Of a stretch of DNA of 32,506 bases, positions 141 through 17,762 are shown piece after piece; position 1 is the first letter of the stretch; each line of letters starts with the position of its first letter. A model generated the notes under the pieces. The model had not been told where the DNA came from. It made no database searches and saw only the letters and a list, made by a program, of their open reading frames with translations. A program made the position numbers and the translations under genes. The stretch lies in contig CAMZNU010000035.1 in the NCBI GenBank assembly GCA_947313885.1, positions 1-32,506 of the forward strand, written 5' to 3'. The DNA is from an uncultured Clostridia bacterium. Its GTDB lineage: Bacteria > Bacillota > Clostridia > Lachnospirales > CAMZNU01.

Positions 141-165
141 AATAATATAAGTAGTAAAAATTAAA

Positions 166-323
166 TGAGACTTAAAAAAGTGGGTGATTCTCTACCTTAA
201 GTGAGACTTAAAAAAGTGGGTGACTCTCTACCTTAAGTGAGACTTAAAAAAGTGGGTGACTCTCTACCTTAAGTGAGACTTAAAAAAGTGGGTGATTCTC
301 TACCTTAAGTGAGACTTAAAAAG
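166..323 (+). ncRNA. Type III toxin-antitoxin RNA antitoxin: 36-bp tandem repeats
   Basis: Four complete 36-bp repeats start at 166, 202, 238 and 274, and a fifth of 14 bases starts at 310. They are identical except for one T/C change in the GGTGAYTCTC segment (T in copies 1 and 4, C in copies 2 and 3). Within each unit, GAGA can pair with TCTC and GGT with ACC around an A-rich stretch, compatible with the compact pseudoknot of known ToxI RNAs. The order promoter, direct repeats, terminator, toxin gene is the diagnostic layout of a type III system, in which the RNA repeats are cut from the precursor by the toxin and then hold it inactive. The pseudoknot is inferred, not shown. Confidence 0.85.
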
Positions 324-358
324 AAAAACAGAGTAGCCAAATGGTTATTCTGTTTTTT
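324..358 (+). terminator. Attenuating terminator between antitoxin repeats and toxN
   Basis: Arms AAAAACAGA (324-332) and TCTGTTTTT (349-357) pair perfectly. They enclose a second stem, GTAGCCA with TGGTTAT (two G-U pairs), closed by a 2-base loop, and a U run follows. In type III systems such a terminator makes antitoxin RNA exceed toxin mRNA. Confidence 0.85.
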
Positions 359-375
359 ATATATAGGGGGGATAT

Positions 376-851
376 ATGAAAAACTTAAAATTATATAAAA
401 TTAAAGATGAGTACATAGAATATTTGTTAGAATATGATAAAAATGTTATACATAACAAAAAAGAAAGCCGACCTTATGTAGGGATAGTTTTAGAAATAAA
501 TAATAGGACATACTATGCACCTTTATCATCGCCAAAAGAAAAACATAGAAAAATCAAAAAGATGTATACAAAATAGATGATGGAGAACTTGGAATAATAA
601 ATTTAAATAATATGATACCTGTATCTAATGATGATCTAATAGAAATGAATATAGAAACAGAAAAAGACGAAAAATATAAAAATATTTTGATAAGACAATA
701 TAATATTATAAGAAAAGATAAGGACGAAATATTAAAAAAAGCAAATAAGTTATATAAAATACTAAGGAAAATAGATAAAGATACATCCCTATATAAAAGA
801 TGCTGTAACTTTATAATGTTAGAGGAGAAAGTAAAAGAATATTTAAAATAG
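376..851 (+). pseudogene. ToxN-like type III toxin, frameshifted
   Basis: The frame from 376 encodes the N-terminal half of a ToxN endoribonuclease, including YVGIVLEINN and the core motif YYAPLSSPKEKH, and stops at 576. The rest of the toxin (IDDGELGIINLNNMIPV through the C-terminal helices ending LEEKVKEYLK) is in the -1 frame from about 555 to 851. The break lies in the A-rich stretch at 551-573; one extra A in the AAAAA run at 556-560 would join the halves as KIKK-DVYKIDDG. Even rejoined, the protein is about three residues shorter at this point than the intact paralogue at 13794-14300. The ribosome binding site is a G-rich run (366-371) just before the ATG. A sequencing error, a phase-variable run or a true pseudogene are all possible. 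Confidence 0.8.
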
Positions 852-935: not shown

Positions 936-1200
936 TCCGTGCTAGCTGGGGAATTAGCGGTACCCTGTTGCCAACAACCCGCTATAGTTGGAGTGATGTT
1001 TGTGCTAGGAGTATGTTTATAAGGTTGCCTTATATAGGAAATGTTGAGAATTAAGTCTTACGCAATAAAAACTTACGAACCGTGTCAGGTCAGGAATGAA
1101 GCAGCACTAAGTAATCATTTTTATGTGCCGTGAGGTCACTTAATTTGAGTGGAATACATAAGAAGCACTTATAAGTGTACTACAAATACAAATGCACGGA
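936..1200 (+). ncRNA. ffs: Signal recognition particle RNA (large bacterial type)
   Basis: The 5' end TCCGTGC pairs with the 3' end GCACGGA, closing an RNA of about 265 nt. This is the length of the Bacillus/Clostridium large SRP RNA, which carries an Alu domain. The hallmark apical region GTCAGGTC...GGAATGAAGCAGCA, bound by Ffh, is at about 1084-1106. The 5' segment GTGCTAGCTGGGGA...TAGCGGTACCCTGT follows the family's Alu-domain sequence. The RNA scaffolds Ffh and directs nascent membrane and secreted proteins to FtsY and SecYEG. It is flanked by its own promoter and terminator. Confidence 0.95.
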
Positions 1201-4215: not shown

Positions 4216-4668
4216 ATGTATTATGAAAAAAATATAAATAAATTAGAAAAAAAAAATATACGCGTAACTAAAGGGAGAGAAAAAATATTAAAAGTGATGT
4301 TGCAATGTCATCATTTCACACCATTAGAATTAAAAAATTTAGTAAATGAGCAATATAAAGAAATAGGAGTAGCGACGGTATATCGGACAATAACTTTATT
4401 TGAAGAAGCTAAAGTAATAAGTAAAAGAGTAGGAGTGGATAATATAGCATATTATGAAATAATTAAAGAAGAAGATGGGCATAATCATCATCATTTAATA
4501 TGTAGCAACTGTAATAAAATTATAGATATGAAAGATGATTTATTAGAACAGATGGAAAAAATAATCTCTCTTAGTTATGAGTTTGAGATTAGAAATCATA
4601 ATGTAGATTTTTATGGAATATGTAAACAATGCAATAACACGGAAGATATGAGAATAAAAGAAAAATAA
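4216..4668 (+). CDS. Fur-family metalloregulator (Fur/PerR/Zur)
   Basis: This 150-residue DNA-binding repressor has an N-terminal winged helix, with recognition helix GVATVYRTITLFEEAKVI, and a C-terminal metal-binding dimerisation domain. The structural zinc site is shown by CSNC and CKQC, and the regulatory metal site by the histidine-rich stretch HNHHHLIC. The start is the ATG at 4216 with a GGGGGG site eight bases upstream; an in-frame GTG at 4177 adds only poor hydrophobic residues. Sequence alone does not distinguish Fe, Zn or peroxide sensing; a PerR-type role would be reasonable in an anaerobe. The 3' end runs into the 41-bp tandem array, whose first copy contains the stop codon. It is divergent from the HAD gene. 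Confidence 0.88.
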   Translation: MYYEKNINKLEKKNIRVTKGREKILKVMLQCHHFTPLELKNLVNEQYKEIGVATVYRTITLFEEAKVISKRVGVDNIAYYEIIKEEDGHNHHHLICSNCNKIIDMKDDLLEQMEKIISLSYEFEIRNHNVDFYGICKQCNNTEDMRIKEK

Positions 4669-4860
4669 AAAATAAAACATAGAATGCAAGATTATAAAAA
4701 GAAAAATAAAAAACAAAACATAGAGTATAAAACTATAAAAAGAAAAATAAAAAACAAAACATAGAGTATAAAACTATAAAAAGAAAAATAAAAAATAAAA
4801 CATAGAGTATAAAACTATAAAAAGACAAATAAAAAATAAAACATAGAGTATAAAACTATA
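4657..4860. repeat. 41-bp tandem repeat array, five copies, after the fur-like gene
   Basis: The CATAGA element recurs at 4678, 4719, 4760, 4801 and 4842, exactly 41 bases apart. The unit is an A-rich block followed by CATAGAGTATAAAACTATA. The first copy is the most diverged and holds the stop codon of the fur-like gene. The last copy runs directly into the palindromic terminator. No open reading frame or promoter is evident in it. Confidence 0.9.
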
Positions 4861-4909
4861 AAATGAAATAAAAAAAAGAAGATTTTATCTTCTTTTTTTT
4901 ATTTCATTT
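4861..4909. terminator. Perfect 49-bp palindrome, bidirectional terminator overlapping the parB stop
   Basis: Arms of 23 bases (4861-4883 and 4887-4909) are perfectly complementary around a 3-base loop. GAAGAT/ATCTTC forms the core and is followed by A8/T8 on either strand. The stop and last codons of parB (4899 onward) lie inside the right arm. It would terminate parB on the minus strand and anything reading out of the fur-like gene on the plus strand. Confidence 0.85.
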
Positions 4910-13491: not shown

Positions 13492-13690
13492 GTCGGATTG
13501 GCACAATCCGACAAGGAGGATTGGCACAATCCGACAAGGAGGTGGCACAATCGGAGAAGGAGGTGCCCCAATCGGAGAAGGATGTGGCACAATCGGAGAA
13601 GGAGGTGGCACAATCGGAGAAGGAGGTGGCACAATCGGAGAAGGAGGTGGCACAATCGGAGAAGGAGGAATTGTTCCAATCGAATAAGAC
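13492..13690. repeat. 21-bp tandem array with a 9-bp hairpin, abutting the greA promoter
   Basis: Eight units begin at 13500, 13523, 13544, 13565, 13586, 13607, 13628 and 13649 (first spacing 23, the rest 21), with a degenerate ninth near 13673. The common unit is GGCACAATCGGAGAAGGAGG plus T; the two units nearest greA read AATCCGACAAGG instead. The promoter-proximal end forms a perfect hairpin, GTCGGATTG (13492-13500) with CAATCCGAC (13504-13512). Each unit carries AAGGAGG on the plus strand, but no gene follows. Since 21 is a multiple of three, open frames cross it on both strands; I judge these to be by-products. Confidence 0.9.
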
Positions 13691-13767: not shown

Positions 13768-13796
13768 AAAAAAAGAAACTAAAAAGTTAGCTTCTA
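13768..13796 (-). terminator. Terminator of the intact toxN gene
   Basis: On the minus strand GAAGCTA (13794-13788) pairs with TAGTTTC (13781-13775) with one G-U pair, and a T7 run follows. The stem starts at the stop codon. Confidence 0.6.
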
Positions 13797-14300
13797 GAAT
13801 AAGCATAAGTTAGCTTCTTTTTGGTATTCTATAGATTTTTTTTCTAATAATTTAAAGTCATAACAAATAGCTAATAATTTTTCACTATTACCGTTTGTAC
13901 GTGCTTCATATAGAGAAGTTGCACGGGATTTTATTGTTTTACGATTTTTATTTATATACCGTATTTGGTTTGTTAAATACTCTTTATATTTTAAGTCATC
14001 AATATTAATGTTAATGATTTCAGACTCTAATACAGGTATCATATTAATTAAACTTACTACTCCGTATTCACCGTTCTTTATTTTATATGCAGTAAAAGAA
14101 TTATCTTTTATTTTTTTATGTTTTTTTGGTTTAAAGCTTGTAAGAGGTGCGAAATATGTATGGGTATTTATTTTTAAAACAATACCTATGTATAGTCGTT
14201 TGTTTTTTTCCATTACTTTAGAATCATGAGATGCTAGAAAATCAATATATTTTCCTTTAATACGATAAAGCATAAGTTTGTTATTTTTTTTATTAGTCAT
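13794..14300 (-). CDS. ToxN-like type III toxin (endoribonuclease), intact
   Basis: This 168-residue protein is a full-length match to the ToxN/AbiQ family of sequence-specific endoribonucleases, in which an RNA antitoxin folds into the active groove. Recognisable segments are YRIKGKYIDFLASHDSKVM, YIGIVLKINTHTYFAPLTS followed by K-rich PKKHKKIKD, YGVVSLINMIPVLESEIININ, and the C-terminal helices ending DFKLLEKKSIEYQKEA. The usual S-P-K of the active loop reads S-F-K here. It is clearly paralogous to the broken copy at 376-851. The ribosome binding site (AAGGGA) is weak, as expected for a toxin. A terminator (14317-14345) lies directly upstream. The gene sits between the dusB cluster and greA. 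Confidence 0.88.
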   Translation of the reverse strand: MTNKKNNKLMLYRIKGKYIDFLASHDSKVMEKNKRLYIGIVLKINTHTYFAPLTSFKPKKHKKIKDNSFTAYKIKNGEYGVVSLINMIPVLESEIININIDDLKYKEYLTNQIRYINKNRKTIKSRATSLYEARTNGNSEKLLAICYDFKLLEKKSIEYQKEANLCLF

Positions 14301-14316
14301 AATATCCCTTATTTAT

Positions 14317-14345
14317 AAAAAAAAGAAGACGTTAATCTTCTTTTT
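14317..14345 (-). terminator. Attenuating terminator upstream of the intact toxN
   Basis: Perfect arms AAAAAGAAGA (14320-14329) and TCTTCTTTTT (14336-14345) surround a 6-base loop. On the minus strand a U8 run follows. Its place just before a ToxN gene mirrors the antitoxin/toxin spacer terminator of type III systems. Confidence 0.8.
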
Positions 14346-14346
14346 A

Positions 14347-14475
14347 AAATTATTAAAATAAAAAAACTTTAACGGTAGTTTTAAACCCATTTATGGTACA
14401 TAAACATTTTTTAATGCAGTGTGTTTTATACAAGTCGCATTATACGGTAGCTCGTCACCGAATAAAAATAATTAT
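14347..14475 (-). ncRNA. Candidate RNA antitoxin element, copy A
   Basis: Read on the minus strand, this begins with TATAAT, then CGGTGACGAGCTACCG, which folds as a 5-bp hairpin CGGTG/TACCG. It continues through GCGACTTGTATAAAACA and GGGTTTAAAACTACCGTTAAAG to a T run. The core is about 95 nt (14460-14366). It is about 80% or more alike to copy B apart from an insertion of roughly 16 nt in the middle. It lies immediately before the terminator and toxN, the position of the antitoxin in type III loci, but the unit is two to three times longer than known ToxI repeats. Function is inferred from position and repetition only. Confidence 0.45.
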
Positions 14476-14542
14476 ATACTAATTATATGACATTAAAATA
14501 ATAATCGCAACAAGAAATAGAATAAAAATTATTAAATGCTTA

Positions 14543-14652
14543 TTATTAAAATAAAAACTTTAACGGTAGTTTTAAACCCATGTATGAAACATAGTATGTT
14601 TTATACAAGTCACATTATGCGGTAGCTCGTCACCGAATAAAAATTATATAAA
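14543..14652 (-). ncRNA. Candidate RNA antitoxin element, copy B
   Basis: This is the second, shorter copy (core 14635-14557, about 79 nt). It keeps the same ends, TATAAT, CGGTGACGAGCTACCG, ACTTGTATAAAACA, and GGGTTTAAAACTACCGTTAAAG with a T run. The two copies are separated by about 70-80 bases of unrelated A/T-rich sequence, so this is not a tight tandem array; each may be a separate transcript with its own -10 box. No convincing -35 box is seen for either. Confidence 0.45.
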
Positions 14653-14664
14653 TTAAAACAATAA

Positions 14665-15624
14665 TTATTTAATACTATTTTTATAATCTAAATAATGTGA
14701 ATGAGATAATGGTTTATTAAGTCTAAAAAAAGAATGGATACGTACGTCATTATAAAGTAGTTCATTTTTAATTTTAGAATTAGAAGAAAGACGATTATAT
14801 TTTTTGAAATTGCGATAATAATTAGATTTAACGTAATATGCAAGTTCAAAATCTAAAAGATTATAAATGTTGCCATAATAATTTAAATTTAAATTATCAA
14901 TAGTTAAAACGTCCATACGTTTAAGGCAAAGGTTGTAAGTACTATTTTTATTCATAGATAAATCAATAAAAATAGCACCAGATTTTAAACTATGAACAGG
15001 TTCAAAAAAATCATTTTTCAAATAAATAACTATATCAGCGCTACTAATGATACTAGAATCATTTTTAAAAGTGGTAATATTTAAACCGTTATCGTTGTAA
15101 ACTTTTTCAATTAAAGAAGAATGATCAAAAGAAGTAACAAGAGATAAATAATTTATGTGGTTGTAAATATTTTCTATTATAATGTTAGTGTGAACAGAGC
15201 CGTCGTCAATAATAGCAATTTCAATATTTTTAAAAATTTTACCAACTTTTGAAATAGAGTTTTCTAAAATAGGAAAAATTAGAAAACTCATAATAGAAAC
15301 AGGGTTGGGAGTGTACATATTATGAGAGCATGGAAAAGAAGAGGTAATAATTTCAACGCCATCATTTTTTAATGTTTCTAAAGTTCTACTGAATAGATCT
15401 TGGAATAAAGTAGGGTCATTAATCATTTCATCATGGGTTAGAGCAAGCTTAATGTCTAGTCCTGTACTTTTACCTAAAGTAATTTCATTTTGTATAAAAG
15501 GATTAAACTTACTTATGTACCAATTTTTAAAACTATCAATTTTAGACAATTTGAATTTAATAGGAAGTAAATTTTTATCTATTACAAAATCAATTTTTGC
15601 AAACTTAACATTTTCATTTATCAT
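14665..15624 (-). CDS. Rossmann-like protein of unknown function, downstream of dusB
   Basis: This is a 319-residue soluble protein. The middle (about residues 133-215) looks like a nucleotide-binding Rossmann fold: strand EIAIIDDGS, helix, strand NYLSLVTS, and a later DIVIYL strand typical of shikimate or other NAD(P) dehydrogenases. The first Gly-rich loop is replaced by DDGSVHTN, so cofactor binding is uncertain. The N-terminal part (TLGKSTGLDIKLALTHDEMI) and the asparagine-rich C-terminus show no motif I recognise. The ATG follows AAAGGCG. It is 73 bases downstream of dusB and likely in the same transcript. I do not assign a function. Confidence 0.6.
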   Translation of the reverse strand: MINENVKFAKIDFVIDKNLLPIKFKLSKIDSFKNWYISKFNPFIQNEITLGKSTGLDIKLALTHDEMINDPTLFQDLFSRTLETLKNDGVEIITSSFPCSHNMYTPNPVSIMSFLIFPILENSISKVGKIFKNIEIAIIDDGSVHTNIIIENIYNHINYLSLVTSFDHSSLIEKVYNDNGLNITTFKNDSSIISSADIVIYLKNDFFEPVHSLKSGAIFIDLSMNKNSTYNLCLKRMDVLTIDNLNLNYYGNIYNLLDFELAYYVKSNYYRNFKKYNRLSSNSKIKNELLYNDVRIHSFFRLNKPLSHSHYLDYKNSIK

Positions 15625-16657: not shown

Positions 16658-16699
16658 AATAATTTCCTATCTATTTTAAGTTTCTTAATTGTTTGAAAA

Positions 16700-17030
16700 G
16701 TTCTATTTATTTTCATCAAGTAATAATTCAATACCGTCAAGATGGTATTATTAAAAAGTTCTATTTATTTTCATCAAGTAATAATTTAATACCGTCAAGA
16801 TGGTATTGAGAAAAGTTCTATTTATTTTCATCAAGTAATAATTCAATACCGTCAAGATGGTATTATTAAAAAGTTCTATTTATTTTCATCAAGTAATAAT
16901 TCAATACCGTCAAGATGGTATTATTAAAAAGTTCTATTTATTTTCATCAAGTAATAATTTAATACCGTCAAGATGGTATTATTAAAAAGTTCTATTTATT
17001 TTCATCAAGTAATAATTTAATACCGTCAAG
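16700..17030. repeat. 58-bp tandem array made from the 3' end of coaX
   Basis: GTTCTATTTATTTTCATCAA recurs at 16700, 16758, 16815, 16873, 16931 and 16989 (spacing 58, 57, 58, 58, 58). The copy at 16989 is the true end of coaX. The five others lie downstream of its stop; each repeats the last 13 or so codons (DGIKLLLDENK and stop) plus a 16-base linker. On the minus strand each unit contains AATACC and GGTATT arms able to form a 6-bp hairpin. Units differ only in ATTCAATACC/ATTTAATACC and small linker changes, so the amplification looks recent. Confidence 0.92.
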
Positions 17031-17762
17031 AGTTAGAGTAGTATCAACAAAATCAATAATATCAGTTCCATCAGAAATAATAGAAGATAACCCGCCAGTT
17101 ACAATAACTTTCATATCGGGTTTATTAAGTTCTTTTTTTATTTTGTTAACGATATATTCAGTTTGTCCAATTTGTCCATAGATGAGACCGACTTGTAAAC
17201 TTTCTAAAGTGTTAGTAGGTATAAAAGATTCGGGCTTACTAATTTGAAAAGTGCCAAGGAGAGAAGCTTTTTGGCTAAGGGCATCAGCAGAAATTTTAAT
17301 ACCAGGAGAAGTAATACCAGTTACAAAGTTACCATTTTTATCAATGACATCATAGGTAGTTGCAGTTCCAAAATCGATAATAATAGCATTACCACCATAT
17401 TTATTAAAGCCAGCGATACAATTTACGTAGCGGTCGACACCTAAAAAATTAGGGTCTTCAAAGACATCCAAAGAAATATTACTAGACATAGTACAGTTAG
17501 CAATAATCGGAGTAATATTAAAATATTTCAAAATGCTATTTTCTAGAGAATGCATAACATTAGGTGCGACGCTAGAAATAATAACGTGTTGAATTTTTTT
17601 AGAATCAATATCCCAACGAGTAAGAAGATTATCAATAAATAATCCAAACACATCAGATGTAGATACGTTACTAGTAGCATAACGCCATAAGTGTAAAAGT
17701 TTGTCATTGTTATAAACACCAATAACTATATTAGTGTTTCCAACATCAAGAATTAAGTCCAT
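16992..17762 (-). CDS. coaX: Type III pantothenate kinase
   Basis: This 256-residue enzyme catalyses the first step of coenzyme A synthesis, ATP-dependent phosphorylation of pantothenate. Type III enzymes belong to the ASKHA fold. The phosphate-1 loop LDVGNTNIVIG, the pantothenate-site segment FLGVDRYVN, the phosphate-2 motif IIDFGTATTYDVID and the adenosine-side GITSPGIKIS are all visible. Length matches the family. GGGGG precedes the ATG. It lies 26 bases after the DUF6145-like gene, in one transcript reading on to dusB. Its 3' end seeds the tandem array beyond the stop codon. Confidence 0.95.
   Translation of the reverse strand: MDLILDVGNTNIVIGVYNNDKLLHLWRYATSNVSTSDVFGLFIDNLLTRWDIDSKKIQHVIISSVAPNVMHSLENSILKYFNITPIIANCTMSSNISLDVFEDPNFLGVDRYVNCIAGFNKYGGNAIIIDFGTATTYDVIDKNGNFVTGITSPGIKISADALSQKASLLGTFQISKPESFIPTNTLESLQVGLIYGQIGQTEYIVNKIKKELNKPDMKVIVTGGLSSIISDGTDIIDFVDTTLTLDGIKLLLDENK

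Follow-up and report, generated by a model that had tools for sequence, protein, structure and literature searches.

The stretch of DNA analysed here, 32,506 nt long and referred to below as the window, contains an intact ToxN-like toxin gene, toxN (13794-14300, minus strand), as the original prediction had stated. Its 168-aa product matches PF13958 in Pfam (E 9.5e-40) and the AbiQ model in PADLOC (9.8e-41), and ToxN/AbiQ is the sole significant family in either collection; CptN and TenpN are set apart through this family match. The ToxN structure 2xd0 in the PDB is matched at E 2e-18. For E. coli ToxN, K33, T52, S53 and K55 have been reported as active-site residues (PMC8860590), and R35, T54, S55, K57 and Q112 of the toxin align with K33, T52, S53, K55 and Q117 of ToxN, a set that comprises active-site and RNA-holding residues (PMC8860590). 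Judged by its sequence, then, the toxin is a member of the ToxN/AbiQ family. No relative of more than 49% identity was found among the searched genomes and the viral, phage and plasmid sets. Reading along the minus strand, the order of features is a gene of unknown function (14665-15624, minus strand; no match in Pfam or NCBIfam), a first repeat module, a spacer of about 60 nt, a second module, a terminator, toxN, greA and lysS.

The terminator (14317-14345, minus strand) is an intrinsic one between the antitoxin region and toxN, as the original prediction had noted, and consists of the hairpin AAAAAGAAGAU-UAAC-GUCUUCUUUUU(UUU) followed by a T run (-9.0 kcal/mol). This hairpin is AU-rich and has two G-C pairs only; our consensus scan omits it because the scan requires three. 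Further upstream lie the two similar elements that had drawn attention to the locus, in the antitoxin position and, as had been noted, in place of a tight tandem array: Tandem Repeats Finder (TRF) detects no tandem array of short repeats (about 34-42 nt each) upstream of toxN. Repeat comparison places module 1 at 14542-14650 and module 2 at 14349-14478 (both minus strand), each extending from TATATAAT to TTTTAATAAT. The element lengths first given (95 and 79 nt) reflect a particular choice of ends, and the shared module measures 109 nt in the first copy and 130 nt in the second. Two stretches, of 55 and 46 nt, are common to the copies with identities of 93% and 89% respectively, and the longest exact repeat is 29 nt (at most 15 nt in 500 shuffles). 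The block CGGTGACGAGCTACCG, correctly reported from each element, occurs at 14460-14445 and 14635-14620 (minus strand), and a search allowing up to three mismatches returns these two matches in the window against 0.01 expected. The main difference between the modules is an insertion in the middle of the second, estimated originally at about 16 nt and found by alignment to be 16 nt; it lies in the linker of module 2 (14388-14429, minus strand), which according to alignment and folding carries an AU-rich hairpin, UUUAUG-UAC-CAUAAA.

A TATAAT, likewise described before in each element, is found within the TATATAAT of both modules, at 14643-14648 and at 14471-14476 (minus strand). The latter copy is directly upstream of the second module's first unit and is conserved in the duplicate. 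In both modules TATATAAT lies upstream of the core of the first unit, at distances of 7 and 10 nt. Whether each module also has its own promoter, as was suggested, is answered differently for the two. Module 2 is preceded by a candidate, TTGCGA-17-TATAAT (14482-14510, minus strand; 10 of 12 consensus bases), whereas the case for module 1 is weak because no convincing -35 box was found there. The best promoter-like site of the locus falls between the two modules, and there is possibly an internal promoter before the second module. Sites of this kind are equally frequent in shuffled sequence according to the consensus scan. TATAAT itself occurs four times against 1.15 expected (2.3% of shuffles reach as many), an excess that weighs little because two of the four occurrences are the duplicated copy.

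The original prediction suggested that the elements may be large single-unit RNAs. We found instead that a module most likely contains two units, A and B, which have the size of a ToxI unit and a pseudoknot-like form; their order along the locus is A-B-A-B, so that the modules read A1-linker-B1 and A2-linker-B2. The geometry of the descriptor used was taken from sequences upstream of toxN at other loci, where the ToxI unit consists of a GGY...RCC stem, a 7-8-nt loop, a short L2 and, downstream, a segment pairing with the loop; the descriptor's ranges were widened so as to take in A, and with them it gives four matches in 356 nt. Unit A is CGGU-GACGAGCU-ACCG followed by CUUGU, which would pair with ACGAG across an 11-nt L2 to form the proposed S2. 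A1 (14605-14635, minus strand) has a stem-loop identical to that of A2 (14430-14460, minus strand) and differs from it at two positions, both in the unpaired L2. Unit B is GGU-UUAAAACU-ACC-GUUAA-AGUUUU, with S1 formed by GGU/ACC and six S2 pairs formed by AAAACU/AGUUUU. The cores of B1 (14554-14578, minus strand; descriptor and pattern search) and B2 (14363-14387, minus strand) are identical.

The support for the two units is uneven. B conforms to the strict canonical geometry, and a match of this kind alone arises in 0.19% of shuffles; A conforms only with a shifted S2, which requires the 11-nt L2 together with a 2-nt gap, departs from the common geometry and by itself does not reach significance. 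Both units within one module, under the widened ranges, are found in 0.02% of 20,000 shuffles. Between the modules, the cores differ at 2 of 65 positions (both in L2), whereas the aligned part of the linker differs at 4 of 18 (p = 0.018). Among 43 units from relatives, which were themselves selected with the descriptor, the stems covary in agreement with this geometry: 97% of cells are paired and 39 cells changed on both sides, compared with 9.5 in shuffles. The folding energy of the modules as a single structure is unremarkable (z about -1), and since the region is very AT-rich (78%), A-U stems form easily. We also considered the elements on the plus strand and rejected that reading. Although S1 is strand-symmetric, a plus-strand S2 is present in B1 and is kept neither in B2 nor in A.

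Profile searches gave a weak signal from an insensitive model. A covariance model of ToxI units from relatives scores 28 bits on a canonical array in the same window and 8.2 bits on A2 (E 1.7 across the window), and it does not pick up B on the toxin strand. However, with E values up to 1 admitted, the model is silent on almost half of 28 held-out ToxN loci, including one canonical array elsewhere in this genome (L002), and its failure on the modules is for this reason weak evidence. Similarly, an Rfam search gave no relevant match, which is uninformative because Rfam also misses canonical ToxI arrays used as a control.

Three type III loci are present in this one 1.55-Mb genome. The second lies within the window (161-851, plus strand) and has a canonical ToxI array of 4.5 x 36 nt at 161-322, on which the 28-bit profile matches fall. 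Its toxN (376-851) is broken, being split into open reading frames at 376-576 and 612-851, and the array is thus an orphan antitoxin array. Just 3' of the broken toxN, at 937-1199 (plus strand), is a large bacterial signal recognition particle RNA (RF01854, 165 bits). The third locus, L002 (contig C11, 13702-14339), has an intact toxN, a strong TTGACA/TATAAT promoter, and tandem ToxI units (3.2 x 38 nt) whose S2 is at its normal position. The core of A is nearly identical to the C11 unit: in the 14-nt stem-loop a single loop base differs, and one S1 pair has changed in a compensatory way (GGC/GCC to GGU/ACC). A joint pattern for this core is matched exactly five times in the genome, each time at one of the two intact toxN loci, while two sites with one mismatch lie elsewhere. 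The B core, searched for in the same genome-wide fashion, is found at the present locus only. DNA searches found no relevant match and no relative outside the source genome that carries the modules; one 34-nt stretch of G135 does match, but in the AT-rich linker.

Comparison with 148 other ToxN loci, a survey biased to the toxin's nearest relatives and with some redundancy, places these features in context. TRF finds a tandem array upstream of toxN in 100 of the 148; the period is 33-42 nt at 99 of these and 73 nt at the other. By eye, most of the remaining loci have tight mixed-unit arrays or arrays whose L2 includes hairpins, or else show a single unit. In four inspected relatives (L046/L053, L051, L097 and L109/L115) two unit types alternate tightly with a period of 72-80 nt. 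L046 is from Clostridioides phage pCD1602_4, and its ToxN is 44% identical to the toxin studied here. The A-B-A alternation is common to these arrays and to our locus, but theirs are spaced at about 36-40 nt per unit. Across the survey, 92% of 170 unit spacings are 30-45 nt, and most larger ones look like missed units or chance matches; at the present locus the spacings are 56, 119 and 72 nt. Because the alternation has parallels and the spacing exceeds the survey norm, the wide spacing is the unusual feature. The earlier suggestion of an undescribed architecture accordingly holds for the spacing and does not hold for the mixture of unit types. A search of the openly available literature found no publications on alternating or non-identical ToxI repeats.

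Unit length is non-uniform at several other ToxN loci as well. At L127, L134, L073, L158 and L081 it varies through an extra hairpin inside L2, and in the first three, as compared with our locus, the extra sequence therefore sits within L2 and not between units. At L021, L024, L112, L133 and L153, three quite different pseudoknots follow one another upstream of toxN, and in each of them loop and partner covary separately. At L035, L039, L043 and L143, only one ToxI-like unit can be seen upstream of the toxin gene.

The known ToxIN and AbiQ systems (ToxIN of Pectobacterium, B. thuringiensis and E. coli; AbiQ-antiQ) have a toxin of the same family, and the terminator between antitoxin and toxin and the orientation on the toxin strand are common to them and to the present locus, as is, by prediction, the GGY-N8-RCC stem with its downstream pseudoknot partner. 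Their arrays are tandem repeats of 34-36 nt in three characterised systems (PMC5086642), whereas here four units of two types are set far apart in two duplicated modules. The RNA region is therefore ToxI-like in outline but is not a tandem array, and we do not class it as an ordinary ToxI array. Most likely the locus represents a known toxin-antitoxin design in stretched form and not a design of a new kind. Given two ToxI-sized units per module, the resemblance of A to the C11 ToxI, the alternation in relatives and the wide spacing, we consider that the sequence probably represents a stretched, alternating ToxI array, in which an A-B pseudoknot pair has been duplicated into A1-B1-A2-B2.

We infer transcription, processing, binding and neutralisation, as well as the identity of the cognate unit (A, B or both), along the following lines. 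After duplication of the A-B pair, long AU-rich spacers would have replaced the usual few-base A-rich joints. Transcription would probably start at the promoter-like site before A2 (14510-14482), and perhaps also further upstream, so that the transcript would carry between two and four pseudoknots: A2 and B2, possibly with A1 and B1 if the start is farther upstream. The terminator would pass a fraction of transcripts into toxN. ToxN would then trim the RNA at A-rich sites, for example UAUAAAAC after A and CAUAAAUG before B in module 2, and the mature A and/or B knots would bind and block ToxN until their supply ends, for instance on phage infection. As 1.8 repeats suffice in the case of antiQ and 2.5 in the case of ToxI-Pa (PMC5086642), module 2 could by itself be sufficient or close to it.

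This last point leads to a possibility to which we give appreciable though less than even weight, namely that the working operon is only the promoter before module 2, A2, B2, the terminator and toxN, with a two-unit antitoxin, and that A1-B1 is a silent duplicate. It is a sub-case of the stretched array, and the confidence attached to the one overlaps with that attached to the other. The sole promoter-like site with a fair -35 box is rightly placed for it, between the modules, about 30 nt separate the stop codon of the preceding gene from the start of A1, and the repeat numbers sufficient for antiQ and ToxI-Pa point the same way; on the other hand, the cores of A1 and B1 are no less conserved than those of A2 and B2, and readthrough from the upstream gene is possible. 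We think it unlikely that each module has its own promoter and acts as one large, unprocessed antitoxin RNA (about 80-110 nt). Module 1 has no -35 box, promoter-like sites are no commoner than in shuffles, each module holds two ToxI-sized knots, and it is the knots rather than the linker that are conserved. What speaks for such an RNA is that TATATAAT has been duplicated together with A, at its 7 and 10 nt distance, that no A-rich ToxN-type cut site lies immediately 5' of A, and that the B end could serve as a weak terminator (AAAAC...GUUUU plus a T run). With a TATAAT 7-10 nt upstream and no A-rich stretch just 5' of it, the 5' end of A may be set by the start of transcription, and to this extent the original suggestion survives. 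A related and similarly doubtful proposal is that the modules are independent, each having its own start and giving two different knots, A and B, on a structured linker; ToxN might then form its complex from two non-identical knots, or A-linker-B might be a single unprocessed bivalent antitoxin.

The antitoxin region could also have decayed, with the toxin inactive or neutralised in trans by another ToxI, either that of C11 or the orphan array at 161-322. The genome does contain two canonical ToxI arrays, A resembles the C11 units, and the ToxN at 376-851 is already broken. We nevertheless regard this as improbable, since the present toxin frame is intact with its catalytic residues, the cores are conserved between the modules, and no cross-reaction is reported between the ToxI-ToxN pairs of Pectobacterium and Bacillus (PMC5086642). 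Less probable still is a dispersed repeat or an unrelated regulatory RNA that merely adjoins toxN, despite the weak sequence-profile matches and the ease with which A-U stems form at such an AT content. The region is in the correct position, from the upstream gene to the terminator and on the toxin strand, and the A core is common to another toxN locus. Copies scattered elsewhere, which the original prediction had named as the mark of a dispersed repeat, were absent from the rest of the 1.55-Mb assembly in pattern and similarity searches, and that part of the alternative is thereby removed.

Returning to the stretched array, its wider interest is in part methodological. Type III systems have been found through tandem repeats before a ToxN gene (PMC5086642), and because TRF misses the present locus, repeat-based searches would overlook others of its kind. 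It also raises the question of whether ToxN needs contiguous identical units or just a supply of suitable pseudoknots, and the mixed or alternating unit types at several ToxN loci bear on how cyclic toxin-RNA complexes are assembled. Finally, the window holds tandem repeats of other kinds. Between toxN and greA (13499-13668) are eight copies of a 21-bp repeat (TGGCACAATCGGAGAAGGAGG), and at 16696-17031 are 5.8 copies of a 58-bp hairpin-containing repeat (AATACCGTCAAGATGGTATT), which overlaps the 3' end of a type III pantothenate kinase gene and extends towards dusB. A 41-bp AT-rich repeat (5.4 copies, 4656-4877) lies between two genes, and the genome seems to be rich in intergenic tandem arrays such as this one.
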